Positions 634-21,393 of a DNA stretch of 23,638 bases are shown piece after piece. This DNA comes from a virus. The stretch is from IMG/VR virus record IMGVR_UViG_3300050026_000365, positions 1 to 23,638 of that record. One strand, given 5' to 3'. The notes under the pieces were generated by a model, which did not search any database, had not been told where the DNA came from, and worked only from the letters and a program-made list of their open reading frames with translations. Numbering within the stretch: the stretch's first letter is position 1; each line of letters starts with the position of its first letter. The translations under genes and the position numbers were made by a program.

Positions 634-2256
634 TTACGCTGAAGTGAAGCTCGCTAAATAATATCCGTTCACATACCAGATAGTCACAACATCGCTCACG
701 TTCGGTGATGTTGAGTTCGTCGGTGAAGTCCCGCCGCCGAGCCATGTTCCGCTAGTCCCCGCCAGTTGTGGCCAGCCTGTAGTCCCCTGTGCAATGCCCT
801 TTGTCCCTGACGCTCCTTGCACGATTCGGAATCGGTAAACTTGCCCCTCAGTGGGATTGGAAAAAGTGACTATGTGTCCAGTTGTCGACATCGTTCCCGA
901 AAAGCCATTTCCCCATGCAAAGTTTAAAGAAAATGTTCCGTTTGTGGCAGCTACGGGAACAGTTGTAGCACCGAGGAAGTTGCCAGTGCCAGAGGTGCCG
1001 GATGTCGAACTTGTCCCCGAAGTCCCACTGGTTGAAGACGTGCCTGACGAACCTGACGTTGAAATCGCCGATGTGCCGGAAGACCCTGCCACGCCGCTCG
1101 TGCCACTCGTTGAAATCGAACTCGTCCCTGATGACCCGCTGGTGCCGCTACTGCCGGACGTCGAGTTGGACCCACTGGTACCAGAGGTCGAAACCCAAGA
1201 GGTACCGGAAGACCCGGACGTTGAACTGGTGCCGGAACTGCCACTCGTGCCTCCTGTCGAAAAAGAAGACGTGCCGCTGGTGGAAGAGGTCCCGGACGTA
1301 CCTGAAGTTGATACCCATGTGGTACCGCTCGTCCCTGAGGTGGAAATCCAAGGGGTGCCACTCGTCCCGGAGCTACCGCTGGTACCACGGGTTCCACTCG
1401 TACCGCTTGTTGATACTGGCGTGGTACCGCTGCTACCGCTGGAGCCAGACGTACCAATGAACGACGTGCCCGAGCTGCCTGCTGGAGCCGAAGTGCCCGA
1501 GCTTCCGGACGTGCCACTTGTGCCAAATCCTGACGTACCGCTCGTGGAACTCGAACCGCTGCTTCCGGACGTGCTTATTGAAGATGTCCCAGATGAACCA
1601 CTCGTGGAAATCCAAGTGGTGCCCGAAGACCCGCTCGTGCCTGAAGTCCCAACCGAACTCGTCCCGGAACTACCGGCAATACCCGAGCTGCCTGACGTGC
1701 CCCCTGTTCCTGGAATACCAAGGCTACTCGTCCCCGAGGTACCGCTGGTGCCGGACGTGCCAAGTGATGCTCCATCTCGACCGGATGTCCCTGACGTAAC
1801 ATTTGAAGACGTGCCGGAACTGCCGCTCGTGCCTGAGGTTGAAAAAGAAGACGTGCCGCTCGTGCTGGAAGAGCCACTACTCCCTGAAGTACCGGAGATC
1901 CCCGAAGACCCCGCTATCCCAATCCCGCTCGTGCCACTACTGCCGGACGTCGAGTTGGACCCGCTGGTACCGGAGGTTGAAACCCAAGAGGTTCCGGATG
2001 ATCCGGACGTTGAACTGGTGCCGGAACTGCCGATGAATGACGTCCCAGACGTTCCCGAAGTGGAGACAGAACTGGTGCCTGAAGTACCGCTAGACCCGCC
2101 TGTGCCTGAAGAACCGAAGAAGGTGCCATCTTTGCCGGAAGAGCCTGACTTCCCCGGAAGCCCACTTGCCAAACTGACATTGATCGGCTGAGATTGAGAA
2201 ATTCCAACCTTGATCACAGGAGCTTCTTTTATAATGACATTTATATTTTCAATCAT
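634..2256 (-). CDS. Gly-Thr-Ser-Gly repeat fibre-like virion protein
   Basis: About 540 residues. I take ATG 2256 as start because it overlaps the TGA of the upstream gene by one base; a TTG one codon earlier is also open. Residues 1-33 form a non-repetitive head (IENINVIIKEAPVIKVGISQ) leading into a short collagen-like GLPGKSGSSGKDG. Roughly 390 residues of GTSGSSG-type repeats follow, with interspersed STSG and WVSTSG units. The last ~110 residues are a beta-rich non-repetitive domain (from NFLGATTVPVAATNG to the end), as in trimeric fibre tips. The head-shaft-tip architecture and position after the baseplate-like gene suggest a host-contact fibre or decoration. Ser/Thr density makes O-glycosylation conceivable, but that is inference. 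Confidence 0.75.
   Translation of the reverse strand: MIENINVIIKEAPVIKVGISQSQPINVSLASGLPGKSGSSGKDGTFFGSSGTGGSSGTSGTSSVSTSGTSGTSFIGSSGTSSTSGSSGTSWVSTSGTSGSNSTSGSSGTSGIGIAGSSGISGTSGSSGSSSTSGTSSFSTSGTSGSSGTSSNVTSGTSGRDGASLGTSGTSGTSGTSSLGIPGTGGTSGSSGIAGSSGTSSVGTSGTSGSSGTTWISTSGSSGTSSISTSGSSGSSSTSGTSGFGTSGTSGSSGTSAPAGSSGTSFIGTSGSSGSSGTTPVSTSGTSGTRGTSGSSGTSGTPWISTSGTSGTTWVSTSGTSGTSSTSGTSSFSTGGTSGSSGTSSTSGSSGTSWVSTSGTSGSNSTSGSSGTSGSSGTSSISTSGTSGVAGSSGTSAISTSGSSGTSSTSGTSGTSSTSGTSGTGNFLGATTVPVAATNGTFSLNFAWGNGFSGTMSTTGHIVTFSNPTEGQVYRFRIVQGASGTKGIAQGTTGWPQLAGTSGTWLGGGTSPTNSTSPNVSDVVTIWYVNGYYLASFTSA
1142..1242 (-). repeat. 101-bp long repeat, copy A (partner at 1931-2031)
   Basis: This block matches 1931-2031 with about seven mismatches by eye and the same length. 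Both encode a SSTSGSSGTSWVSTSG-type segment. It is far more alike than the rest of the tract, so it looks like a recent internal duplication. Confidence 0.8.
1931..2031 (-). repeat. 101-bp long repeat, copy B (partner at 1142-1242)
   Basis: Second copy of the long near-identical block in the repeat tract. Mismatches to copy A are single-base changes, several at third codon positions, with no indel. Confidence 0.8.
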
Positions 2257-2633
2257 CAATTCAATCCCGTTGTACCCGAAGTACCTGCTGTACCAGCACT
2301 GTCCGTCACATCATATTCAATAGTGAATTTTCCTCGCAGCACGGTATAGACATTTCCAGAGGTATCCACCGCCTGAATATCAAAATCATAATCTCCAGGA
2401 AATAATTGTTGAGTATCCGCCGGAAGCAAAGTTAATGCTGTTTGCCCCTGAGTAGGATTTGTATGCTGAGTAATAATTTTTTGAAGTGCTGCTTCGGAAT
2501 CTGGCTGTAGCCAGTTTTTTTTCAACGTAAAAAAAACACTCCACCCGGTGATGTCAATTGGCCCTTGCTCATTTGAAAAAGTAAGGGTGCAATTATAAGA
2601 ATCACCCCTAATCATACGAAGATTCGTTAACAT
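2256..2633 (-). CDS. BppU-like baseplate/neck beta-sandwich protein
   Basis: 125 residues from ATG 2633, with a GAGGTAG ribosome binding site just upstream. The N-terminal ~105 residues (DSYNCTLTFSNEQGPIDITG, then WSVFFTLKK, PGDYDFDIQAVD, and VLRGKFTIEYDVT) match the general pattern of N-terminal domains in BppU-type baseplate upper proteins: a polar beta-sandwich with an ITGW..FFTLK core. The C-terminus ends in a short SAGTAGTSGTTG tail like that of the neighbouring repeat proteins. It overlaps the fibre-like gene by one base, so the two are probably made in fixed ratio, with this one possibly anchoring the fibre. The family call is by motif recall and is moderate. Confidence 0.55.
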   Translation of the reverse strand: MLTNLRMIRGDSYNCTLTFSNEQGPIDITGWSVFFTLKKNWLQPDSEAALQKIITQHTNPTQGQTALTLLPADTQQLFPGDYDFDIQAVDTSGNVYTVLRGKFTIEYDVTDSAGTAGTSGTTGLN

Positions 2634-2683
2634 TATTTTACTACCTCAAAAATATAGAGAAGCTAAAATCATTGCCAATCCTT

Positions 2684-2857
2684 TTATGTGCCGGTGCCTG
2701 ACGTCCCACTGCTACCGCTGGTCCCTTTTCCGCCGGACGTGCCGCTGGTTCCTGCTGTATTACTGCGCCCTGAGGTACTGAATATTGCAGTTCCAAGACA
2801 AGCGGTATTTCTCGCATTAAGCTCTTCCTGTAATCTTTTTATTGCATTAATAGCCAT
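2684..2857 (-). CDS. Small GTSG-tailed protein A (57 aa)
   Basis: I choose ATG 2857 rather than the upstream TTG or ATG 2863, because GGAGG sits 8 bases before it and far too close to ATG 2863. The protein has a helical head (MAINAIKRLQEELNARNT), a short linker CLGTAIFSTSG, then a tail of SGTSGTSGGKGTSGSSG. It is paralogous to the gene just upstream (2890-3057): both start MAI, share an NT...GTA segment, and end in GTSG repeats. They lie between the neck adaptor and the baseplate-like gene. Possibly a small virion peptide whose head binds a structural ring and displays the repeat tail; function unproven. Confidence 0.65.
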   Translation of the reverse strand: MAINAIKRLQEELNARNTACLGTAIFSTSGRSNTAGTSGTSGGKGTSGSSGTSGTGT

Positions 2858-2889
2858 TTTCATGTCCTCCAAAAAAGGCCAACTATTTA

Positions 2890-3057
2890 TTAATGAGTTG
2901 TGCCGCTCGTGCCGCTCGTCCCGGACGTTCCACCAGTACCGCTCGTAACCCCAGTGCCGCTCGTCCCGGATGTGCCAGCCTGAAAAGCAGTGCCAATCAC
3001 GTTTGTATTCCCCGCTTTTATCGCTTCCCTTAAATTTCTCAAAGCCACGATAGCCAT
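2890..3057 (-). CDS. Small GTSG-tailed protein B (55 aa)
   Basis: ATG 3057 is preceded by GGAGGATAATAAG, a strong ribosome binding site with good spacing. The product is a ~16-residue helical head (MAIVALRNLREAIKAG), NTNVIGTAFQ, then GTSGTSGTGVTSGTGG and further repeats, ending TTH. It is a tandem paralogue of the downstream 57-residue protein. The head is conserved in pattern (MAI.A...L.E...A.NT...GTA) while the repeat tails differ in length. The gene is short but supported by its ribosome binding site, paralogy and operon position directly after the adaptor gene. Confidence 0.65.
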   Translation of the reverse strand: MAIVALRNLREAIKAGNTNVIGTAFQAGTSGTSGTGVTSGTGGTSGTSGTSGTTH

Positions 3058-3073
3058 CTTATTATCCTCCTAT

Positions 3074-3787
3074 TTATGAACCAAAAGGGCGCGACCTCAT
3101 GCGCGCGCTATCCAAATTATTACTTCTCATGAACCTTTCGGTCTTTGCCGAAACCGCTTTGCCAAAATGCTGTTCAAACTTCTTTTCGTATAATTCTGAT
3201 TTCTGGAGATTAAATGTTTCCGAATCGTTTTTCAAAAAAGCCAAATGCGCTGCCCAGTAAAGCATTTTTCTATGATACCGCTCAGGAATTTCAGGATAAG
3301 TAATTCCGTATCCTGCAGTTCCGGTTAGATTTGAATTTAACGTCAATTCATTAAGCGGAAGTCTTGAAACCTGAAGAAACGCAGTCCCCGCTTCGATTGA
3401 AGCCCCAACAAACATAATCTCGCCTTCGTTTTCAATTATGTATGCTCCAACCTGCCCGTGTCGCCCAGACCACCCAGGATGTTCTTGATCCATCCGGCTA
3501 CGCGTTGTTTGTCTCAAGGGATATGAATGTTGAAACGAGGTACCAAATTTTGCTCTTTTAACAAGCAAAACCTTATCATGCAAAGGATACCAAGAAACGC
3601 CTACCTGAATTGGAATTTGACAAACCGCCGGATTATGTTCCTCAATGATTAAATGAGCTCGTCTGGTAGCTTCATCCTGAGCTTCCCGAATATCAAAAAC
3701 CAATTCGGGATCTGACCAGAGATAGGGCTCAACAACATCATCAAGAAACTCTGCCCTAAGTATATTAAGTAATTGGGTTAGAATCAT
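3074..3787 (-). CDS. SU10-type neck/adaptor protein
   Basis: 237 residues. The N-terminal half (LNILRAEFLDDVVEPYLWSD, then DIREAQDEATRRAHLIIEE) has the helical pattern of head-tail adaptor proteins of the SU10/phiEco32 type, and the central part is beta-rich (VGVSWYPLHDKVLLVKRAKF). Such adaptors sit under the portal and form the upper neck ring in podoviruses. Length fits the family (about 200-260 residues). The start at 3787 overlaps the upstream gene by 23 bp and has only a weak ribosome binding site, so coupled translation is likely. Family assignment rests on motif recall and on its place in the structural operon. Confidence 0.65.
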   Translation of the reverse strand: MILTQLLNILRAEFLDDVVEPYLWSDPELVFDIREAQDEATRRAHLIIEEHNPAVCQIPIQVGVSWYPLHDKVLLVKRAKFGTSFQHSYPLRQTTRSRMDQEHPGWSGRHGQVGAYIIENEGEIMFVGASIEAGTAFLQVSRLPLNELTLNSNLTGTAGYGITYPEIPERYHRKMLYWAAHLAFLKNDSETFNLQKSELYEKKFEQHFGKAVSAKTERFMRSNNLDSARMRSRPFGS

Positions 3788-4202
3788 CGCTCGGAGGCCC
3801 CGCTAAGATTTCTATGTTAAAACGTGGAATATGACGCACAGATTCCACACCGGTTTCTTCATCACGTTCGACTTCAGTGTAGATGCACTTTTTCATCATG
3901 TTGATAACCGGTACCGGTAATTCCACGGGAGTATTCTTTGTGATCCACATGTTATATGTGTTCAAAGAAATGAAAGGCCGTTTACTTTCGTTTGCGCGGC
4001 CAGTTTCCCGAAGAATAATCCACTTCCTCTTATGCCCTCCAGCGTGGGTAAAGAAAGTAGGATCAAAATCACCACCAATTTCCACGTTCTCATTGTTTAC
4101 CGAAATATTCGGTTTCTCATGACCAGCCAAAACCGTTGGGTTTTCTCTCGGGATTATCCCATCCCCGCCGACGTTAATTCCGCTAATTGCATCTTTTATC
4201 AT
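3765..4202 (-). CDS. Hypothetical virion protein, 145 aa
   Basis: ATG 4202 follows an AAAGAGGGC ribosome binding site. The N-terminus is polar (IKDAISGINVGGDGIIPREN), and a central stretch GGHKRKWIILRETGRANESK is basic. Residues 85-115 are hydrophobic and beta-like (NTYNMWITKNTPVELPVPVI). No catalytic motif or membrane span. It lies between a hairpin terminator and the neck adaptor and overlaps the latter, so a head-completion or minor capsid role is plausible. Not recognised. Confidence 0.65.
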   Translation of the reverse strand: MIKDAISGINVGGDGIIPRENPTVLAGHEKPNISVNNENVEIGGDFDPTFFTHAGGHKRKWIILRETGRANESKRPFISLNTYNMWITKNTPVELPVPVINMMKKCIYTEVERDEETGVESVRHIPRFNIEILAGPPSDDSNPIT

Positions 4203-4229
4203 TTTTTTGCCCTCTTTTTAATTAGTTAA

Positions 4230-4262
4230 AGTGACGCCATCGACTACACCGATGGCGTCACT
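4230..4262 (-). terminator. Hairpin terminator or attenuator in the structural operon
   Basis: A perfect 13-bp inverted repeat (AGTGACGCCATCG / CGATGGCGTCACT) with a 7-base loop lies in the 80-bp gap after the decoration-like gene. On the minus strand it is followed by TTAACTAATTAAAAAG, so the U-tract is weak. It may terminate partially, or stabilise the 3' end of the abundant capsid message. Confidence 0.65.
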
Positions 4263-4283
4263 CCATGATTAACGCAATACCGA

Positions 4284-4889
4284 TTACGGCTCGTAAATCG
4301 GCATATTATACAACTGGACGATGTTCATTGAAGAAACCCCAGAGTTTATCGCACCGACGCCGGACGTAAACGCTGTTGCTCCGGTAAAAATCTCAACATA
4401 TCCGATTGCGCAATTCTGTTGAGGTAGGTCAGGCATAAATGCTCCGGGGGCCAGTGCAGGAGTCCCGTACCCGTAATAGGTACCAGCAGTACCAGCGGCG
4501 GACTCGTTTCCTTTGGTAATGGTTACTTTTCCATTTTTATCCATTGATACCAAATATTTACAATAGGTCCCAGTGCCTTGAGTTCCCAAAGATGCGGGGA
4601 ACTGAATATTGGTATTGGCGGTTCCTGCGCACAGCATACCATCAATGATAACAGAGCCCACAGTAGTCAAGGCGATACCGACGACTCCACCCGAACCACC
4701 GCCAGTTCCCAGTACCAGTTGCGGATGTGTAACTACCCTATTGTTGATCCCCGACAGAGCCCTGCGATCAGACTCGTCCATGAAAGCCATGAACGCCGAA
4801 CGCTTTGCAACTATCGGTTGGCTCAAATTTGCATAGCCCGAATTCCATACTTTCTGTTGAGCTAATTGATTTTCAATTATGTCACCCAT
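4284..4889 (-). CDS. Putative capsid decoration / head-fibre protein
   Basis: 201 residues from ATG 4889, with AGGAGG seven bases upstream. The N-terminal ~55 residues are helical and polar (MGDIIENQLAQQKVWNSGYA, then RSAFMAFMDESDRRALSG). The rest is a Gly/Thr/Ala-rich beta region (LGTGGGSGGVVGIALTTVGS, NGKVTITKG, AAGTAGTYYG) ending with a CAIGYVEIFTG strand typical of phage fibre or decoration folds. It comes directly after the major capsid gene and before a hairpin, a usual place for decoration proteins. No enzymatic motif. It could instead be a tail fibre adaptor; the virion role is inferred from composition and location. Confidence 0.5.
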   Translation of the reverse strand: MGDIIENQLAQQKVWNSGYANLSQPIVAKRSAFMAFMDESDRRALSGINNRVVTHPQLVLGTGGGSGGVVGIALTTVGSVIIDGMLCAGTANTNIQFPASLGTQGTGTYCKYLVSMDKNGKVTITKGNESAAGTAGTYYGYGTPALAPGAFMPDLPQQNCAIGYVEIFTGATAFTSGVGAINSGVSSMNIVQLYNMPIYEP

Positions 4890-4954
4890 AATGTTTCCTC
4901 CTATTTTTGCTGTGTAAAATTACACTAACCATGTAAAAGGTTAGAAATAGTTAA

Positions 4955-5962
4955 TTAGTTACTCGCCGCGCACTCATAAACCGTAAACCATGCGTCATTA
5001 AGAATGACAGCAGTTTGCATGGTTTTCCAAGAAACTGATCCGCGCTGCCCCAGAGGATCGGACTTCGAAGGCGAAGGATTAATAACCATCGGAGTGATGG
5101 CATATTTACCTTTCAGCGCAACCAGTCCAAAACTATCCTTGCCAACATACAGTATAGGATAGATATCGGCCGAGGTACCGGAAGTTGTAATCAATCCGGT
5201 CGGATTAGCCCCACTTGTTGATGCAGTTCCGCCGGAGTCCGGCCAAGACTGGAAAATCTGGCTGTGGAGATACCGCACATCTTCAACGGCGCCGATTTCA
5301 GACTCAAAAGGCGGAATCTGGCCGTAATCTTTAACATCGATAAAACCAGGCATAGCACGAACATCGGACTTCAGATCAACATGGCAAAGTGCCACGAAAC
5401 AGGGTAGGACGTTCTCGGTATTGAAATTCGGAGTGGATCGGATAATCGAAGTGATATGGCCAGCAAACTGGCGTTCCATGGAGCGGACGATCCGACGTTG
5501 GTCAGGCCTATTAACCGGGCTCACAATTGACGACTGAAGCGCCACACTGCCGGCATAAAACACATTACTGCCGGCTTTCAACTGGTTAAACCGGTAAGTT
5601 TCGATGGTCATGGCCGCTTGTTCACCAAGAACATTCTGTGCTTCCTGGAAGACAGGATCTTCATGGGTATCTGCGATGACATCGGAAATGGCCACGACAT
5701 TACCAAATTGCTGCAAGGTTGCGGTAATATCGGTGTATGTCAGTTTTTGGGCGGGTGGAGTAACACCTTCTACCAACGGTGTAAGCGTAAGGGGAAGATG
5801 TTCATAACGACGGAATTTAATCGTAGTTGATTTGTTGCCTGGAAGCGGTTTCATCTGCCCAAATTTTTCGAGCAGCATGTAAGGCATGCCGCGTTTTAAC
5901 AATTCTACTGCTGCGTAGGCTGCGGTCCGCGGTGAAATATCACCGTAAACAGTTGTATTCAT
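4955..5962 (-). CDS. Major capsid protein, N4-gp56 family
   Basis: 335 residues from ATG 5962, with AGGAGG five bases upstream. The N-terminus TVYGDISPRTAAYAAVELLK and the run LLEKFGQMKPLPGNKSTTIK, followed by FRRY, are hallmarks of the N4-gp56-type HK97-fold capsid family. The next conserved parts are also present: LTYTDITATLQQFGNVVAIS, DVIADTHEDPVF and the central helix around residues 115-130. Length is close to the family norm. Residues 242-265 hold a Ser/Gly/Thr-rich segment (GGTASTSGANPTG, TTSGTSAD) resembling the repeats of the fibre-like proteins. It forms the icosahedral shell and is placed after the scaffold-like gene as in other phages. Confidence 0.9.
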   Translation of the reverse strand: MNTTVYGDISPRTAAYAAVELLKRGMPYMLLEKFGQMKPLPGNKSTTIKFRRYEHLPLTLTPLVEGVTPPAQKLTYTDITATLQQFGNVVAISDVIADTHEDPVFQEAQNVLGEQAAMTIETYRFNQLKAGSNVFYAGSVALQSSIVSPVNRPDQRRIVRSMERQFAGHITSIIRSTPNFNTENVLPCFVALCHVDLKSDVRAMPGFIDVKDYGQIPPFESEIGAVEDVRYLHSQIFQSWPDSGGTASTSGANPTGLITTSGTSADIYPILYVGKDSFGLVALKGKYAITPMVINPSPSKSDPLGQRGSVSWKTMQTAVILNDAWFTVYECAASN

Positions 5963-5995
5963 TAGATCCTCCTATTCTCGATAAGAGATCAGGAA

Positions 5996-7006
5996 CTATT
6001 TTATACCAGCAACCACAGCAGCTTCTTCAAAGGCGCCTTCAAAGTCTTCCTTGTTGCCGACACCACTTTTAGTGCCAACCGGTTTCCTCCCGGAATCGAC
6101 TATTTCTTGCGATTGAAGCTTTTCCTGTGTTTTTTCATCCATTTGAGTGGCCGTTTTTGTGCTGGTAGTTACCTGAGTCCCAATATTGTTATCTTTTTTA
6201 AATCGGGAATAGAGGTCAATTACATCCTGCGTGTCGCCTTCATCAAAAACCTTTTGCAAGGCTGTCCGCAAAAATTTTGGTTGTTTGTCAACCCAACCCT
6301 TTAACGACCCATCGTCCCGATACTTCTCGTAATCCGGATGAGCAGTTTTGATGGAGGTAAAGTGAGTTTCCTCAGACGTCTTTTCAGAAGCCATGAGGAA
6401 CGGAGCCAAAGTATTAAGCAGAGTTTTATTTGAAGTTTCAATAGCTTCATCAATATAAGAAGATATCTTTTTCGCAAATATTGCTCTTTTCTTCTGCTCC
6501 GACTTACTAACTACATCGAACTCTTCATCGTATTTCGACAACTCCGCTTTTTCTTCATCGGGTAGGTCGTCATAAAGTTTCAAAAGGAATTCTGCCAGAT
6601 TTTCCTTTTTCTTTTCTGCTCTTGCCTGTTGAGTTTTGGTACCTTCCTGCAGTTTTTCGATCTCTGTCAATTTTGCCTGCAGAGAATCTAATTTAGTCGT
6701 CAGGGTTTCCTTTTCTTCTTTATCTTTTTTATAGATCCCCTGAAGAGTCAAATATTGCTGCTTATAGTCCTCGCTCCCTGATGTCCCTGCATCCCCAGAT
6801 TCTTCCTTCGGCTGTACCTGGCCATCGGTTCCGGATGTACTCTCGGAGATATTCTCTCCAGATGTACCCCGATCCTCTGACTCAGATCCCTTTTCCGAAT
6901 CTGATAAGCCTGTAGATCCATCCGCAAAAGCCTCATCCAACACGCTCTCCGTTTCAGGTGGCAGATCGGAAAGCTCATTCTTAACTGGTTCTACTTTTTT
7001 AGCCAC
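5996..7006 (-). CDS. Scaffold-like protein with GTSG-containing N-terminus
   Basis: 336 residues from GTG 7006 with a GAGAGGG ribosome binding site. The protein is highly charged. The N-terminal ~80 residues are acidic and Ser/Gly-rich, with RGTSGENISESTSGTDG and DAGTSGSED. Residues ~80-135 are a probable coiled coil (LQGIYKKDKEEKETLTTKLD, then SLQAKLTEIEKLQEGTK). The remainder is helical, ending in NKEDFEGAFEEAAVVAGIK. Such proteins directly before an N4-like capsid gene are usually internal scaffolds. The short C-terminal helix could bind capsid subunits. No protease motif is visible. The role rests on composition and gene order. Confidence 0.6.
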   Translation of the reverse strand: MAKKVEPVKNELSDLPPETESVLDEAFADGSTGLSDSEKGSESEDRGTSGENISESTSGTDGQVQPKEESGDAGTSGSEDYKQQYLTLQGIYKKDKEEKETLTTKLDSLQAKLTEIEKLQEGTKTQQARAEKKKENLAEFLLKLYDDLPDEEKAELSKYDEEFDVVSKSEQKKRAIFAKKISSYIDEAIETSNKTLLNTLAPFLMASEKTSEETHFTSIKTAHPDYEKYRDDGSLKGWVDKQPKFLRTALQKVFDEGDTQDVIDLYSRFKKDNNIGTQVTTSTKTATQMDEKTQEKLQSQEIVDSGRKPVGTKSGVGNKEDFEGAFEEAAVVAGIK

Positions 7007-9655: not shown

Positions 9656-12103
9656 CTATAGCATCCCCGTTTCTGACGAGACCGGCCCTCTTGATTTCAA
9701 ACCTGTTTGTCCCAATAACTTATCGCTGCGTTCCGTTCTTTTCCTTAAATCATTTACATAATAACAAAGATATTGCAAGGCTTCCGCCGGGTGAGAAAAT
9801 ATATTTTTAAAAGGCTCATCCGAATATTCATTTATTGTTCCTGGAATTTTCTTCCGATGATATCCTCCATTGAGTGCCTTCCTGAGCATAACGCATGCAG
9901 GTGAAATAACTATTGCCGGTTCACCATCAATCATTCTGGTTAGAAACCCTTGCACAGCGGCGACGCGCGGTAACAATGCGTTTGTCGGACATGGCCGCAC
10001 CAGGCGAAACCCATTGTTCCTTAATACCTCAAAACACGTTGATGAATCCGTAGGCGCTCTGGAAGAGCCTGAGGGATCACCATAACCGCCTTGAATTGCT
10101 ATCCCAAAATATTTCATTCTCATCTGCGGAATTGCGATAGTATTTAAAAAGATTTCAAGATCCATCCCATCAGAAACCAATTCATCAATAATAAGAAGCC
10201 GGCCACGCGGAGTTATCTGGGCAAGGATAAGCGTCGGATTGAGACCAAAGTCAAATCCACAAATCAAAGGCTGAGTCTTTAGCGGCTGAATAACAGACAA
10301 TGCAATATGCGTATTGTCATTGAACTGTTCGATAACGAGTTTACCTTCTGATGTGTATCCATACTGGCCCTCAATATAGACACGAACATATTGAGGAGAT
10401 TTGCCAATAGCTAAATCTTTATAATAATTTTTGGCGAGGTTTTTCAGGTTCTCGGCTTTGTTAGAAAGCCCGGAAGGTTGCTTGAAGATTGCCGCGGTTA
10501 TTGGTTTGTTCACCTCAAAGAATTTAAACCACTCGCTGTTTTCATCCGGCGGGTTAGTATCCATAATAATTCCGCACCAAGTACAGCCCCCATCTTTCTT
10601 CCCTGGGTATCGATTGATACGACCATCAAGAGCATCTATAATTGCCCAAGGAATTTCTCTCGCTTCGTTTACCCACGCTCCGGTTAATTCCAAGGAAAGC
10701 AAATTAGCAACCTGCTCTGGCCGATCAAGGGCGCGGAAAAGCAATTCAATATGAACACCGGGGAATTTTGTGATTGTGTAAATATGGTTAGTCACCGAAT
10801 ACTCGCCAAAGACAGTTTCAGGAAGCCAATCCATCACTGTGCGGATAGTCGTATCTTTTAATTGGGCGTAGGTCTGAGAACTTAGTGATATTACATAGTT
10901 GCGCCGTGTAACAACAACGTGACTTGGAACTTCTACGCAATAGACCAGCCCATCGTATTGTTGTTTATACCAATTATTTTTTCTCGAAGTTTGTGGTAGA
11001 TATTGATTCGCTTGATGTACCGTCAAAATAAAGTAAAAACCTTGACTTAAGAAACTACCAATCCGTCGCTTAGCGATGTATCTATTTAAACTTGCACTTC
11101 CTCCAGACCTTAAAATAATCTCCTGTAAATCATTCGCTAATTTTTCTGAAGAAGTATACAATCTTGTGGAGTCGTTTTTATGAGTTCGTGTATGGCCATC
11201 GCCTTTTTCGTAACCTCTGAGAAACGCTTGCAGGTGGCTGCTCGGAGCATTTTTTATCCAATCAGGTAGATGTTTTGTTCTTGAGTTGCCACACGGTAAA
11301 AGCTTTTCAATTAATAATTTAATATCATCGTTTACATACACACAATAATTGTACGCTGAACTGTTTGTGTTTTTGTTTCGCCCGTATTTAAAACCACAAG
11401 CATCAAGTAATTCGGTCACATATTTTATGTTTTCTTTTTGTGATACCGTAAGCCTCCAATGATAACCATGTGTATCTTTTCTTGGGTATTTCCCGACATA
11501 ACCTTCCGCAAACCAAAAACCAAAAAACTCAAACATTCTTTCCGAAAACTCAGAAAAACCACCATTATATTTTTCTATATTTTTCTTAAATCTATAATGA
11601 GTCATTCCATAAATATCACCAGCTTTATAAAATTCATAACCATACATTTTTTTCGTTCTACCGTTAATCATAGACGCGTAGAGACGATGATCCGGCGTTA
11701 CCAAGAAATCAATATTCCTGTTTTCATATCCAATCATCTCTCCCTTATAGGGCGAAGAATAATAAAAAGAAGGCGTAACAAAAACTAATTCATTGCCTTT
11801 TTCTTGACTCGCTATTTTATCTTCTGGCACCAAATCTTTAAATAATTGCCACCCACGCTTTTCAGTGAGGACCTCGGTCTGATCATCAAAACAATTACGA
11901 ATTATCGCCCATCGTGTTCTTCTGATTCCATCCTGAGAAGGTGCCTGCTCATGGGCGCGCCTGATGATTTCCATCAAACAGCCGCTCGACTTCCCGCTAG
12001 CGAATGGCCCAAGTAACCCTTTGATTCGCTTATTACTTTGCGCAAACTTCTTGATAGTGGGAACGTCGTTATAAGAATATACTATTTTGTAGGGTTCTGC
12101 CAT
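9656..12103 (-). CDS. terL: Terminase large subunit interrupted by an intein
   Basis: 815 residues, of which 71-410 are a predicted intein; the spliced protein would be 475 residues, a normal size. Extein motifs: Walker A GPFASGKSSG (32-41), the IIRN|TYAQLKDTTIRT segment rejoined across the intein, Walker B-like GAWVNEARE (475-483), and the RNase-H-like nuclease acids in CGFDFGLNP (Asp 618), LLIIDEL (639-642) and GGYGDPSG (Asp 676). It packages DNA at the portal by ATP hydrolysis and cuts it. The ATG overlaps the preceding stop (TAATG). Without splicing, the ATPase would be disrupted just after Walker A, so intein activity should decide phage packaging. Confidence 0.9.
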   Translation of the reverse strand: MAEPYKIVYSYNDVPTIKKFAQSNKRIKGLLGPFASGKSSGCLMEIIRRAHEQAPSQDGIRRTRWAIIRNCFDDQTEVLTEKRGWQLFKDLVPEDKIASQEKGNELVFVTPSFYYSSPYKGEMIGYENRNIDFLVTPDHRLYASMINGRTKKMYGYEFYKAGDIYGMTHYRFKKNIEKYNGGFSEFSERMFEFFGFWFAEGYVGKYPRKDTHGYHWRLTVSQKENIKYVTELLDACGFKYGRNKNTNSSAYNYCVYVNDDIKLLIEKLLPCGNSRTKHLPDWIKNAPSSHLQAFLRGYEKGDGHTRTHKNDSTRLYTSSEKLANDLQEIILRSGGSASLNRYIAKRRIGSFLSQGFYFILTVHQANQYLPQTSRKNNWYKQQYDGLVYCVEVPSHVVVTRRNYVISLSSQTYAQLKDTTIRTVMDWLPETVFGEYSVTNHIYTITKFPGVHIELLFRALDRPEQVANLLSLELTGAWVNEAREIPWAIIDALDGRINRYPGKKDGGCTWCGIIMDTNPPDENSEWFKFFEVNKPITAAIFKQPSGLSNKAENLKNLAKNYYKDLAIGKSPQYVRVYIEGQYGYTSEGKLVIEQFNDNTHIALSVIQPLKTQPLICGFDFGLNPTLILAQITPRGRLLIIDELVSDGMDLEIFLNTIAIPQMRMKYFGIAIQGGYGDPSGSSRAPTDSSTCFEVLRNNGFRLVRPCPTNALLPRVAAVQGFLTRMIDGEPAIVISPACVMLRKALNGGYHRKKIPGTINEYSDEPFKNIFSHPAEALQYLCYYVNDLRKRTERSDKLLGQTGLKSRGPVSSETGML
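10874..11893 (-). mobile_element. LAGLIDADG-type intein in terminase
   Basis: 340-residue in-frame insertion. The first residue is Cys (CFDDQTEVLTEKRGWQLFKD), a classic splicing block A. FLVTPDHRLY is block B with the TPxH motif. FFGFWFAEGYVG and LQAFLRGYEKGDG are the two LAGLIDADG-like dodecapeptides of a homing endonuclease, and VYCVEVPSHVV resembles block F. I place the end at SSQ followed by Thr, because removing 71-410 restores the IIRN-TYAQLK terminase sequence. The expected His-Asn end is replaced by Ser-Gln. Confidence 0.85.
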
Positions 12104-12642
12104 TAGTACCTGCTTAAATTCATGTAGCTGGGTTTGCCGTTCGTCACCATGTCCTGAAACATCTTCGGTATATCCTCTTTTTTCTGCGGCCGATACGTTT
12201 CTATATTGTAAAACAAATCCCGGAGCAAGTCAATATCTTCTAGACAGCAATGTGAATAGCCATCTTTTTCGTACTCCCGCCAGCGTCCACTTCCCACGAG
12301 TTTCACCGGAATCTCTTCATGGTGAATATAATTCCGGATGACCTCAGCGCCACGCCAGAGGAGAAAGGGCGTGATCGTGTAGGCGAAAACAATCATTCTT
12401 TTTTCGATAGCCATGCCGACTGCCATCGCCAACATGGTATGTTCTGCAGCTCCGCAGTTAATTACCCACCCAGGGAATTTTTCACGCACCTTATCAAAAA
12501 CTCCATAGCCAACATCACCAAGAAGAAGCGCCACACCATCATATTTCCCCCGATCAAGGTCTTTCCATTTCCACCCCGAAGCCATCACTCCGTTAAAAGC
12601 CCACATCAATTCCAAAAGTTCGCTCGCAAAACTATTTCTCAT
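12103..12642 (-). CDS. Transketolase-like subunit, pyrimidine-binding domain
   Basis: 179 residues corresponding to the middle (Pyr) domain of thiamine-diphosphate transketolases. Recognisable are LLLGDVGYG (40-48), CGAAEHTMLAMAVGMA with the presumed cofactor-activating Glu 67, VFAYTITPFLLWRGAEVIRN, and VKLVGSG followed by GYSHCCLEDIDLLRDL. The usual third (C-terminal) domain is absent. Its partner, the PP domain, is encoded separately just upstream at 12783-13394, so the enzyme would be a heteromer. It could transfer a two-carbon unit in making an unusual sugar. The stop overlaps the terminase start as TAATG. Confidence 0.85.
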   Translation of the reverse strand: MRNSFASELLELMWAFNGVMASGWKWKDLDRGKYDGVALLLGDVGYGVFDKVREKFPGWVINCGAAEHTMLAMAVGMAIEKRMIVFAYTITPFLLWRGAEVIRNYIHHEEIPVKLVGSGRWREYEKDGYSHCCLEDIDLLRDLFYNIETYRPQKKEDIPKMFQDMVTNGKPSYMNLSRY

Positions 12643-12790
12643 CGGCCACCGCCTCGACTACCTCGTGACACTCTGGGCATAAAATCTCTCCAGTGTAATG
12701 CTTCCACCTGACACATTCAGTGGAATAACCTGTCCATCCACATTCAGGATTGCAACAATCTACTCTGTATTTTTCTACTTTTTTAGTCAT
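12632..12790 (-). CDS. Small zinc-ribbon protein (52 aa)
   Basis: A short gene from ATG 12790 with AAAGGAG seven bases upstream. The product carries CCNPECGW near residues 12-19 and CPEC at 38-41, a four-Cys zinc ribbon that could bind one metal ion. It overlaps the end of the PP-domain transketolase gene by 8 bp and the start of the Pyr-domain gene by 11 bp, so all three are coupled. It might help assemble the split enzyme or act independently; the sequence gives no direct proof. The strong ribosome binding site and clean metal-ligand pattern support it as real. Confidence 0.75.
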   Translation of the reverse strand: MTKKVEKYRVDCCNPECGWTGYSTECVRWKHYTGEILCPECHEVVEAVADEK

Positions 12791-13394
12791 TATAAAACTC
12801 CTTTAACGCCAAATATTCTGGATTGTCAAGTTTGTGATAATGTCCGGAAACACCTTCAAGATACGGAGGATGTACTGCCCTGTAAAAAGTCACCCTTCTG
12901 GAAAATGCTACTATTCTACTTTCAAGTTTATCGGTGTCTACTTTATCATAAGCTGAATAGCCATTCATTATTACAAAAAGTTTTACATTTTTTACTGGCA
13001 AATCTTCCATGAGTCTTAATGCTTCAAAACACGATCCTTCACAAAACTCCCCGTCCGAGCAAATACAATACACTGTAATCTCCGGCCGCGCCAACGCCAT
13101 GCCCAAGGCTATTGGAAAGCCCATGCCGAGGCTTCCGGTGCTGCAATCTATGCCTATTCCGCGATCAGGATGGGTGCGAAAATCCTTGGGAACATCCACT
13201 CCCAAATCTTCCAAAATGACTCGCAAAGCCAAGTACGAGTGGCCACAAGATAGGACAACTTTGTCTTCCGGCTTTTTCTTTGAATAAATATCCACAAGCG
13301 GCTCAACTGCATTCAGACAACTTGAGATATGCGCCAGTTGATTTTCGTAGCTGTGCTCAAGTATTTTTCGTTTATACCAATTTATTGATTTCAT
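12783..13394 (-). CDS. Transketolase-like subunit, thiamine-diphosphate-binding domain
   Basis: I choose ATG 13394 (MKSINWYKRK), which has AGGAG five bases upstream; a longer frame to 13475 only shadows the neighbouring gene. The 203-residue protein has the transketolase PP-domain order: SCGHSYLALRVIL (49-61), DCSTGSLGMGFPIALGMALA (83-102), then SDGEFCEGSCFEAL (113-126) with metal-binding Asn 144 in VIMNGYSAYDK. Two departures are visible: Met 91 where transketolases normally have a substrate-contacting His (TGSLGHG), and Ser-Asp-Gly instead of Gly-Asp-Gly. The partner domain is encoded at 12103-12642. Substrate unknown; an altered donor or acceptor is likely. Confidence 0.85.
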   Translation of the reverse strand: MKSINWYKRKILEHSYENQLAHISSCLNAVEPLVDIYSKKKPEDKVVLSCGHSYLALRVILEDLGVDVPKDFRTHPDRGIGIDCSTGSLGMGFPIALGMALARPEITVYCICSDGEFCEGSCFEALRLMEDLPVKNVKLFVIMNGYSAYDKVDTDKLESRIVAFSRRVTFYRAVHPPYLEGVSGHYHKLDNPEYLALKEFYND

Positions 13395-13533
13395 TTCTTC
13401 TCCTGATTGTTTGTCTAAACCCGCACCACTTACACCACAGTTGAATATCCCCGTCTGGGTAAATTGGTGGAGCATAATGCCAGTTGAAATGATGCGTTAT
13501 TCTCATTATCCACTTGTAGAAAAAATATCTCAT
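13372..13533 (-). CDS. Small CxxC protein (53 aa)
   Basis: ATG 13533 follows AGGAG with five-base spacing and overlaps the preceding stop as ATGA. The product starts MRYFFYKWIMRITHHFNWHY and has a single CKWC pair at residues 34-37, then a basic end (GFRQTIRRRNEINKLV). With one Cys pair plus His it might bind metal as a dimer. It overlaps the start of the transketolase PP-domain gene by 23 bp. Function unknown, but ribosome binding site and coupling on both sides support translation. Confidence 0.65.
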   Translation of the reverse strand: MRYFFYKWIMRITHHFNWHYAPPIYPDGDIQLWCKWCGFRQTIRRRNEINKLV

Positions 13534-13745
13534 TTTTTCTCCTTTTTATAGGCCTCTCTTTCGGCAACAAGAATTAATCCCTTATCTTTTGGATGTTTCC
13601 GATGTAGCCGTTTCAGTTCTTCCGAATAATCTACAGCCAAGGGATTCAGGTTCACGCGGTCAATCAACAACTTAATTTGCTGCGTGTAATCAATTATCTT
13701 CTTTTCCCGCCCTTCTAGCGCGTATGCCCGTTTCCCGTTTGTCAT
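13530..13745 (-). CDS. Hypothetical small charged protein (71 aa)
   Basis: 71 residues from ATG 13745, preceded by GGAGGAGATGTC. Highly charged and probably helical (EGREKKIIDYTQQIKLLIDR, then YSEELKRLHRKHPKDKG, ending AEREAYKKEKK). It follows immediately on a relic of an epimerase C-terminus, whose frame overlaps its first codon. No recognised domain. It sits at the junction between the epimerase region and the split transketolase. Confidence 0.6.
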   Translation of the reverse strand: MTNGKRAYALEGREKKIIDYTQQIKLLIDRVNLNPLAVDYSEELKRLHRKHPKDKGLILVAEREAYKKEKK

Positions 13746-13825
13746 GACATCTCCTCCAGTCCATTCATTATCAACAGTATATCCTTGACTGTTTTCTCCA
13801 ATCCTTCTTTAAGGCTATATTCCAG
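13742..13825 (-). pseudogene. Relic of an epimerase C-terminus
   Basis: In the frame ending at TGA 13744-13742, the sequence reads LEYSLKEGLEKTVKDILLIM and then NGLEEMS. It closely matches the end of the intact epimerase (QEYTLKAGLTKTVKEILEGM): 13 of 19 aligned residues from the first EY are identical. The remainder of that paralogue is missing and replaced by the small gene at 13815-14081. This looks like the tail of a second, deleted epimerase gene. Confidence 0.65.
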
Positions 13826-14081
13826 TTTTTCTGCGCTCCTGTTCTTTTTTCATTGCCTCTTGAAAGGTTGGTAGTTTGAGTTCATACCAAGGAACACATT
13901 TGAGGAGTTGAATAGATGTTTTTGTCGCTTTATCAAAATACCACTCAAACGCTCTTTCCTTTATTAACCACGGCCTAGCTTTTATAAATTTTATTAATTC
14001 ACAAATTCTTGAAAAAACAAGAAGAATTAAAAAACAAGACTGCTGCCAGATATTCCAACTATTTCTTTTTATTTTTTTCAT
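13815..14081 (-). CDS. Hypothetical protein with hydrophobic segment (88 aa)
   Basis: 88 residues starting at ATG 14081, overlapping the epimerase stop (TAATG). Residues ~13-28 are hydrophobic (QQSCFLILLVFSRICELI), which may be a membrane or amphipathic helix; the rest is basic. Its stop lies at the start of the epimerase relic, so its 3' end may have been created by the rearrangement that left the relic. No family recognised. It may be a chance frame in partly degenerated DNA. Confidence 0.45.
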   Translation of the reverse strand: MKKIKRNSWNIWQQSCFLILLVFSRICELIKFIKARPWLIKERAFEWYFDKATKTSIQLLKCVPWYELKLPTFQEAMKKEQERRKTGI

Positions 14082-14899
14082 TACATCCCCTCCAATATTT
14101 CCTTGACCGTTTTTGTCAATCCTGCCTTAAGGGTATATTCCTGCGTCCATCCTAGTGCCCTTAATTTTGAATTATCGACACACCATGAATCGGTACAGTG
14201 CTTGTGGAGTTTGCCCGTATGATAATTAATGTGAGGCTCCTTTCCCATTGCTTTTGCGATCACCTCAACAATTACAGAATTCGTATATTCAATCCCCGAA
14301 CTCACATTATAAATCGGACCACACAGGGAGGGTGCATCTTCCATAATTGTGAATATCGCGTCAATAAAATCTTCAACATGAACCCAATCGTGAACGCCGG
14401 GATAGAGATCGATTGCTTCGCCTGCGACTATCTTCCGAATTACAGTTGGGATAAATTTTTCTGGGCGTTCATATTTTCCGTACACCGATGATGGCCGGAC
14501 AATGACAATCATCTTTTCAAATTGCCGCGCAAACCCCTGACAGAGCAAAGTGCCCATGCCTTTCGTTGCATCATAAAGATTAGTGGGATTTATGAGATCA
14601 GACTCTTGCATTGAGACGCCCATGGGACCGTACTCTGAAGATGACCCCACATAAACAAAAATAGAATCTTTCATGTGAATAAATCGACAGAGCATTTTGT
14701 AGAGCAGATTCACATTGGCATCAAACATGTCTTCCGTTTTACGGACTTCGCCGGCGAGGTAAAAAATAAAATCGTAATTATACCCAATCGGCACGAGCCA
14801 ATCACGGCCTACCGTGTCGAATTCAATTCCATGATTCTCAAGATATTCACAAAGATTTTTCCCGATGAAGCCAGTCGAACCGGTTATGAGTGCTCTCAT
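14081..14899 (-). CDS. NAD-dependent nucleotide-sugar epimerase/dehydratase
   Basis: 272 residues. ATG 14899 overlaps the preceding stop as ATGA, with AGGAGG six bases upstream. The N-terminus has the Rossmann TGSTGFIG (6-13). Extended short-chain-dehydrogenase features follow: YLAGEVRK, active-site Ser in VGSSSEYG (85-91), and YDATK with catalytic Tyr 109 and Lys 113. Further parts VRPSSVYGKYERPEKFIP, DWVHVEDFIDAI and YNVSSG fit the GalE/RmlB-like family that converts nucleotide sugars. Length is a little short for the family (about 310), so the exact substrate is unclear. It works with the adjacent glycosyltransferase and transketolase genes, presumably in making or modifying a sugar. Confidence 0.85.
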   Translation of the reverse strand: MRALITGSTGFIGKNLCEYLENHGIEFDTVGRDWLVPIGYNYDFIFYLAGEVRKTEDMFDANVNLLYKMLCRFIHMKDSIFVYVGSSSEYGPMGVSMQESDLINPTNLYDATKGMGTLLCQGFARQFEKMIVIVRPSSVYGKYERPEKFIPTVIRKIVAGEAIDLYPGVHDWVHVEDFIDAIFTIMEDAPSLCGPIYNVSSGIEYTNSVIVEVIAKAMGKEPHINYHTGKLHKHCTDSWCVDNSKLRALGWTQEYTLKAGLTKTVKEILEGM

Positions 14900-15184: not shown

Positions 15185-16015
15185 TTACGCCTCCTGTGTA
15201 ATTTTTATAAACTCTGTAAGTTTCAGTTGAAAATTCTTCTCCGCCTCAATGTAGTCTGATCTCATCAGATCGCTGTTCATCGTGCTCCTGGCCAGAGGCG
15301 CTTCAATGGTACAAAAACCCAGACCGCCAGAACCCCAAAATTCATGTTCCCTGTACTCCTGCCACGTCCAGGTATTGTCAGGCATCAAGACCACCGGACA
15401 TCCGCAGAGTCTTGCAATCTCCGTTATCGCTGTGACTGAATCGTAACAGTATAACATCTCACAGCGGTTCAGTTTATAGGCAAGGCGGCACTGGCCCTCA
15501 TCACCGCGAAAATCTTCTTTCCCTCCCAGTAGTGGGTAAAGAACCAACGGGTCGTTAAGGCTCGTGGCCTCCTGTCTGCTTTTGCCACGATAGACCAGTC
15601 TACCGTGCCGAGGAAGTTTCCCATCATAGAAAACATCAAGATCAATGTGAGGAATTAACATGACACGCTCTGGGGGAAGTCCCAACTTTGTATTGAAAAG
15701 TTTTGAGTAAGTATAGCAAATTCCGTCCGTAGGAATACTTGTTGGCCCACCACAAACCCCTGGTAAATTTAATAAATAATGAACTACTGTTTTAGTGTGA
15801 AACGGATTATTAAATAAAATTTCTGGTAGAACAGCAATTGCATTTTCATCATTACTTCCCCAAAGAGGAATCCTCTCCCACTTTGGGTTCTGAATTGGCT
15901 GATTTGTGAAAACGACTTGTCCTCTTTTTTGCAATTCTACTGCAAGTCTGTTTAAGACGACGATACCGCCGCTGCTTCTGTCGAAAGGTGGAAACCAAAC
16001 TGCGTATGGGTTCAT
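15185..16015 (-). CDS. Glycosyltransferase-like protein (GT-B type)
   Basis: 276 residues from ATG 16015, with AGGAGG lying in the last codons of the upstream HNH gene. The N-terminus (WFPPFDRSSGGIVVLNRLAV, then ELQKRGQVVF) has the opening helix pattern of GT-B glycosyltransferases. VMLIPHIDLDVFYDGK and LVYRGKSR fit the inter-domain region, and YCYDSVTAITEIARLCGCPV resembles the donor-binding part of GT-B enzymes, where a Glu contacts the nucleotide sugar. It is shorter than usual GT-B proteins (about 350-400) but keeps both halves. It probably transfers a sugar to a cell-surface or virion acceptor; donor unknown. Confidence 0.65.
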   Translation of the reverse strand: MNPYAVWFPPFDRSSGGIVVLNRLAVELQKRGQVVFTNQPIQNPKWERIPLWGSNDENAIAVLPEILFNNPFHTKTVVHYLLNLPGVCGGPTSIPTDGICYTYSKLFNTKLGLPPERVMLIPHIDLDVFYDGKLPRHGRLVYRGKSRQEATSLNDPLVLYPLLGGKEDFRGDEGQCRLAYKLNRCEMLYCYDSVTAITEIARLCGCPVVLMPDNTWTWQEYREHEFWGSGGLGFCTIEAPLARSTMNSDLMRSDYIEAEKNFQLKLTEFIKITQEA

Positions 16016-21329: not shown

Positions 21330-21393
21330 CCAAAATGGATGACCCAAAATGGATGACCCAAAATGGATGACCCAAAATGGATGACCCAAAATG
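21330..21393 (+). repeat. Iteron array, 14-bp unit, four copies and a partial
   Basis: CCAAAATGGATGAC repeats head to tail exactly every 14 bp at 21330, 21344, 21358 and 21372, then a partial copy CCAAAATG at 21386-21393. With no spacers it is not a CRISPR array. Such iterons are typical binding sites for a replication initiator or repressor. Confidence 0.85.

Follow-up and report, generated by a model that had tools for sequence, protein, structure and literature searches.

Genes of the window and its collagen-like cassette

The window, meaning the whole stretch of DNA analysed here, is a complete virus record of 23.6 kb and is itself a genome fragment. Its virion genes occupy the minus strand and follow one another as terminase, portal, scaffold-like protein, major capsid protein, decoration-like protein, small protein, SU10-type adaptor, two small proteins, BppU-like protein and fibre; the terminase carries a LAGLIDADG intein-like insert. 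The closest capsid relatives among public phages have 33-43% identity. Relatives were gathered via the capsid and via an adaptor profile, and L073 was added from a Deltaproteobacteria MAG contig. The SU10-type head-tail adaptor (3074-3787, minus strand; Pfam SU10_adaptor, 1.4e-15) is the conserved gene that precedes a cassette ending in the fibre. All window features given with coordinates below are likewise on the minus strand.

The gene at 634-2256 encodes a collagen-like fibre of 540 residues, comprising a short beta-type N-terminal anchor, a GTS/GSS shaft and a C-terminal tip, as judged from Pfam, PHROG and the orthologous fibres of L074, L080, L081 and L088. Its match to Pfam Collagen (PF01391; E 8.4e-6, 25.9 bits) does not reach the curated cut-off of 27.2, and the match to the PHROG "collagen like minor tail" stands at 0.0054. 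The L074 and L088 fibres hit models of collagen-like adhesins at E<1e-38, yet also under the cut-offs of those models. In the shaft (residues 33-432; 961-2160), which was delimited by glycine spacing, 62 of 100 Gly-Gly spacings are exactly three, against a null mean of 14. The X position of the Gly-X-Y triplets is Thr or Ser and the Y position Ser, and proline and charged residues are nearly absent. Recurrent interruptions of the form GT[ST]-[WSPA]-[VIF]-STSG are present, and glycine holds its period less strictly here (0.62) than in other GTSG fibres (0.70-1.00). A tandem repeat finder detected no array in the fibre DNA. A block of 36 residues is duplicated within the shaft (1924-2031 and 1135-1242; 93% DNA identity), and the two copies differ at eight synonymous and zero nonsynonymous codons (neutrality P about 4e-5), which implies that the shaft sequence, including its interruptions, is under purifying selection. 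The tip (634-984) aligns at 28-30% identity with the tips of the GTSG fibres L055, L061 and L063. This is suggestive, but the HMM score is at the level of the shuffled control and gives no support for a relation to the widespread tip domain.

The start codon of the fibre gene overlaps the stop codon of the gene for an Ig-like/BppU-like protein of 125 residues (2256-2633; phrog_1084, 4e-20). BppU_N (PF10651) scores 0.053 for this protein and matches two of eight family members, at best with 3e-4. The predicted model is all-beta with low confidence; the prediction for the fibre tip is of low confidence too, and fold searches with both were uninformative. Viral scans with these two single proteins gave no relatives. 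Comparison of homologues defines a C-terminal collagen-like tail, GTAGTSGTTGLN (2259-2294), whose GTAG is invariant in all eight homologues, while the codons differ among them. The two small proteins before it each combine an anchor peptide with a Gly-X-Y tail, as recognized by alignment and glycine phase: protein B (2684-2857; Gly phase P 0.001) with the peptide MAINAIKRLQEEL, and protein A (2890-3057), which has orthologues in L003 and L073, with the peptide MAIVALRNLREAI. Glycine keeps to one phase of three in the small tails, with single breaks, and in the BppU-like tail (P about 0.001).

The cassette is conserved in L003, L073, L074, L075, L079, L080, L081 and L088. In these relatives the adaptor is followed by one or two anchor-peptide proteins, a BppU-like protein of 119-128 residues ending in the invariant GTAG, and mostly a fibre with a GTSG shaft. 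The first small protein of L074 is an exception, and the L003 sequence ends too early to show the remainder of the cassette. The anchor-peptide proteins share a conserved N-terminus of about 12 residues, MAIxxxKxLxEDL, and then a tail built of GTS or ATSAGxAGTA repeats. Fifteen matches to the peptide were counted against 4.1 expected, 13 of them downstream of the major capsid protein or adaptor, and in more distant capsid relatives the peptide is found at the N-terminus of unrelated proteins at the same position, suggesting that it would act as a docking peptide. That the small tails generally zip into the fibre helix was considered and is disfavored, because in L079 no GTSG fibre was seen after the GTS tails, and in L081 and L088 the fibre is accompanied by tails of a different build.

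Distribution of the GTSG motif among virion proteins

The original prediction placed one Gly-Thr-Ser-Gly sequence in at least six neighboring virion proteins. G[TS]SG was counted in each protein and compared with composition shuffles. The fibre has 54 occurrences against 4.2 expected (P<0.0005), the two small proteins of about 55 residues have 5 against 0.09 and 5 against 0.08 (both P<0.0005), and the BppU-like protein has one, in its tail, against 0.01 (P 0.012). A weaker excess than in these proteins is seen in the scaffold-like protein, with 2 against 0.03 expected (P 0.0005), in a disordered N-terminus (6776-6871); the TSG positions recur in the L003 scaffold and GTSG in that of the L079 phage, and they are absent from most other relatives. 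For these five proteins the prediction stands. The capsid protein does not belong with them: it has no G[TS]SG, and its two TSG triplets reach P 0.03 in the shuffles. The stretch with STSG/TTSGTSADIYP (5168-5236) is mostly an ancestral capsid loop, since the second TSG belongs to the loop of the capsid family itself (ISTSGTxADVYP), which is present in repeat-free relatives as well; orthologue alignment limits the extra sequence to the roughly six-residue ASTSGANPTG stretch and rules the capsid out as a repeat carrier. The GT-rich runs of the decoration-like protein (4284-4889), which the original prediction had also listed, are mostly conserved family sequence, GTQGTG being conserved in L003 and partly in other relatives. 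No motif enrichment was found in this protein (P 0.28), and it was excluded in the same way.

Counting the motif in the proteins of the phage and of relatives had been proposed at the outset. None of the non-virion proteins of the window reaches P<0.05 for motif excess. When the repeat genes are left aside, the broader motif G[TS][ASTDN]G has an observed/expected ratio of 10.8 in the window and 3.2-10 in seven cassette relatives, versus 0.3-1.2 in six cassette-less ones, and the extra motifs of the lineage outside its repeat-rich genes lie mostly in virion genes. This excess indicates that a motif common to several virion proteins is a true property of the lineage.

A TibC-like glycosyltransferase linked to GTSG repeats

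The sugar genes of the window are situated at 12103-14899. Pfam and NCBIfam identify a split transketolase-like pair (12103-12642 and 12783-13475) and a nucleotide-sugar epimerase/dehydratase-like gene (14081-14899), and a putative GT-B-like glycosyltransferase (15185-16015) was recognized by eye; the latter gave no significant family match and no PDB relative. It had been proposed that sugar enzymes of the same transcription unit may decorate the repeat. Glycosylation itself gains indirect support from the linkage of a TibC-like/GT4 enzyme to GTSG repeats, but the linked genes are different ones: the transketolase pair was not found in the cassette relatives, and the epimerase, for which a viral scan with the single protein gave no relatives, is present in only one of them.

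GT4 genes above cut-off occur in four of six cassette records versus none of 14 cassette-less ones. In the cassette relatives the enzyme has about 930-1380 residues, with a GT4 domain and a C-terminal TibC-like (protein O-heptosyltransferase) domain. It is encoded in 5/7 cassette relatives versus 0/14 cassette-less relatives (Fisher P 0.001). The L079 enzyme matches TIGR04414 with 243 bits (cut-off 200) and TibC in the PDB (4rap) with E 1e-46; L074 (190 bits), L080 (166 bits) and L081 (121 bits on a partial sequence) remain under the cut-off. In L079 the gene lies between terminase and portal, within the virion-assembly module, and in the L073 contig it lies 5.7 kb behind the gene at the fibre position. 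The two cassette relatives without the enzyme are the shortest contigs, and all five longer contigs encode it. The 23.6-kb fragment of the window gave no match to a TibC-like gene; the copy of this phage would lie beyond it.

The phage TibC-like domains retain the catalytic Asp, the Thr/Lys donor contacts and the four iron-finger Cys residues. The equivalent of TibC Arg-286, which confers ADP specificity, is Ser in L079 and Arg in 7 of 52 viral domains (position taken relative to Trp-305), and that of Pro-300, involved in stereoselectivity, is mostly replaced. These replacements imply that the donor sugar, and even the reaction, may differ from those of TibC. Searches of these repeat proteins with TibC-type target repeat models found none.

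The linkage extends beyond this lineage. An ORF was counted as repeat-rich when it contained at least six G[TS][ASTDN]G motifs; this motif was chosen after the lineage had been seen. Among the best 80 of 427 enzyme relatives in viral contigs (54 clusters), ranked by a lineage-derived alignment and thus not a random draw, 33/54 clusters have a repeat-rich ORF near the TibC-like gene, versus 1/69 control loci (P 1e-14), the controls being phages related to the window, not random viral contigs. With up to 10 kb examined per side, the nearest repeat ORF in the 33 positive clusters always lies within 6 kb, on the same strand in 26. Conversely, of 20 contigs chosen solely for GTSG fibres, eight hold TIGR04414 over the cut-off, with 271-322 bits. 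Four of 50,697 phage records contain the TibC-type domain. One is the Microcystis phage isolate Mel-JY01 (190 kb), in which 94 of 94 GTSG-like matches lie within the initial 9.7 kb (5% of its length) around the TibC-type gene; two belong to a 735-kb uncultured phage, in which a GTSG-rich ORF lies about 5 kb from the gene; in the fourth, the stretch read contained no repeat ORF. The closeness within contigs and the Mel-JY01 genome serve as controls independent of the choice of motif and loci.

Proposed O-glycosylation of the fibre

The linkage suggests that these phages coat their own fibres with sugar by themselves. Our main reading, to which we assign a probability of roughly 0.55, is that the fibres are proline-poor and collagen-like and are O-glycosylated by a phage-encoded enzyme of the bacterial autotransporter heptosyltransferase (BAHT) type. 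GTSG would then be a collagen-like Gly-X-Y repeat, making up the shaft in one long fibre of the virion and the tails in its small neighbors. Each protein would be docked on the virion through a short amphipathic peptide at its N-terminus or, in the case of the fibre, through a beta-type anchor, with the repeat projecting outward. During fibre production the TibC-like + GT4 O-glycosyltransferase would transfer sugar to Ser/Thr of the repeat, in this lineage and in unrelated GTSG-fibre phages. The sugar would stabilize and shield the nearly proline-free triple helix and shield the virion; threonine glycosylation is said to stabilize other collagens (discussed in PMC3368898; for BclA, PMC8968730). 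In this lineage the scattered G-T-[AST]-G loops of other virion proteins would probably be acceptors too. Several points count against the main reading: scattered motifs outside repeat genes are enriched in this lineage alone (ratio 0.61 in unrelated TibC-positive phages), the window fragment gave no TibC-like match, the Arg-286 and Pro-300 equivalents are mostly replaced, 21 of the 54 clusters gave no repeat ORF in the stretch examined, the controls were related phages, the glycine period of the fibre is irregular, and its Pfam Collagen match falls just short of the cut-off. A broader formulation is put forward more tentatively, with odds somewhat short of even: that tailed phages possess a self-contained system of virion-fibre O-glycosylation, in which a GT4-TibC fusion and its collagen-like GTSG substrate are encoded side by side, and that this lineage adds acceptor loops in other virion proteins.

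The fibres might instead be ordinary unmodified collagen-like fibres, the TibC-like enzyme acting on, for example, a host surface glycan or autotransporter and being co-inherited with host-range genes. EPclA produced in E. coli gives stable triple helices without glycosylation (PMC3368898), phage host-recognition regions often contain glycosyltransferase genes whose presumed role is the alteration of host LPS (PMC7029224), and in 21/54 TibC-like clusters a repeat ORF was not found in the stretch examined. We nevertheless consider this explanation rather unlikely: the nearest characterized relatives of the enzyme O-glycosylate Ser residues in repeat proteins, the enzyme and the repeat are less than 6 kb apart and mostly on one strand, cassette-less relatives lack the enzyme, and in L079 its gene is inside the virion-assembly module. 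Still less probable are flexible low-complexity linkers with neither triple helix nor sugar, retained solely for solubility. The near absence of proline and charge makes the stability of an unmodified triple helix doubtful, and scaffold N-termini of the relatives are disordered, acidic and variable in composition; against this, glycine is in phase in the tails, many GTSG fibres are strictly periodic (0.70-1.00), the GTAG tail is invariant, and the duplicated blocks have diverged only synonymously.

The view of the original prediction, that a single DNA repeat spread through the virion genes by recombination, is highly improbable despite the GT-rich insertions that relatives carry in loops of the adaptor and scaffold and the internal DNA duplications of the fibre, because DNA sharing between genes does not exceed what the amino acid sequences impose. 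The longest exact DNA common to the fibre and another gene is 9-14 nt per gene (P 0.16-0.99 in synonymous-codon shuffles), and no similarity between repeat genes above this null was found. Comparison of codon use, also proposed at the outset, revealed 35 different codings among 50 TSG triplets, so that identical motifs are coded in highly varied ways, as is the BppU-like tail among homologues.

Collagen-like phage tail fibres are known from EPclA-D of E. coli O157 prophages (PMC3368898) and from FibU (gp68) of 80alpha, with a BppU-like N-domain and a collagen-like stretch (PMC7048315). The window resembles them in having a virion-attachment domain followed by a Gly-X-Y shaft, and in the association of a BppU-like domain with collagen-like sequence. 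It differs in that X and Y are Thr/Ser, with almost no proline or charge and with hydrophobic interruptions, in that the BppU-like protein and the fibre are separate, overlapping genes, and in its additional 55-residue anchor + tail proteins. BAHT enzymes (TibC/AAH; TIGR04414; PDB 4rap, PMC4358343) attach sugars to Ser/Thr of bacterial adhesins of the autotransporter type. The linked phage enzyme shares the catalytic and iron-finger residues in its C-terminal domain and has a Ser/Thr/Gly-rich repetitive neighbor as its likely substrate. Unlike BAHT enzymes, it has a fused GT4 domain at the N-terminus and another domain in the middle, with the Arg-286 and Pro-300 equivalents mostly changed, its neighbor is a collagen-like virion repeat and not a beta-helical autotransporter, and the window fragment lacks it. 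Mimivirus L230 glycosylates viral collagen, modifying hydroxylysine with glucose (PMC4691112). As in the proposal made here, a viral enzyme modifies the virus's own collagen-like proteins; our proposed acceptors, however, are Ser/Thr, the enzyme family is another and the virus is a bacteriophage. Mycobacteriophages such as Maravista are presumed to add sugars to their capsids by means of glycosyltransferases of their own (PMC11256854), which is likewise comparable to the proposed decoration of virion proteins by phage enzymes; enzymes and substrates are taken to differ.

Uncultured phage contigs with GTSG fibres number in the hundreds, and in the papers searched (subscription papers and preprints were not covered) we found no TibC-type enzyme tied to phages and no enzyme tied to these fibres. 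If the proposal is correct, the sugar coating of the fibres that recognize the host would be under the control of the phages themselves, with consequences for adsorption, stability and recognition, and the stability of nearly proline-free collagen repeats would be explained. Mel-JY01, an isolate with both the enzyme and the repeats, allows a direct test.

A shared N-terminal peptide behind the adaptor

Proteins encoded behind the SU10-type adaptor that are otherwise unrelated have a short N-terminal peptide in common, as seen in L005 (6163), L008 (13145), L011 (10035 and 10649), L012 (4049 and 5229) and L013 (10811 and 11467). This peptide is a candidate for a general docking peptide for virion fibres. 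In some relatives, the same anchor, the conserved N-terminal peptide of the small cassette proteins, bears ATSAGxAGTA repeats in place of GTS repeats (L075 6760-6981, L127 10325-10753, L081 7180-7395, and L088 6058-6318).

Intein-like inserts and homing endonuclease-like ORFs

In the window, the terminase large subunit gene (9656-12103) contains an insert that resembles an intein and includes a LAGLIDADG domain. In the L074 phage, an intein-like insert with a match to Pfam Intein_splicing interrupts the GT4-TibC gene, which encodes a GT4 domain fused to a TibC-like domain (L111 888-5015). Both of the closest relatives, L003 and L073, carry a homing endonuclease-like ORF that interrupts or precedes the capsid gene near its start (1353-2490 and 750-1365, respectively).

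Other features of the window and a hint of the host

The window has a transketolase-like gene split into a pair (12103-13475), present here in a phage; no such split pair was found in the 18 other phage records searched. Between divergent gene blocks lies a short DNA repeat (21330-21393) of 4.6 copies of a 14-bp unit with zero mismatches. Because L073 (JAJFTS010000264.1), the closest long relative, was binned with a Deltaproteobacteria MAG, a deltaproteobacterial host is hinted at.
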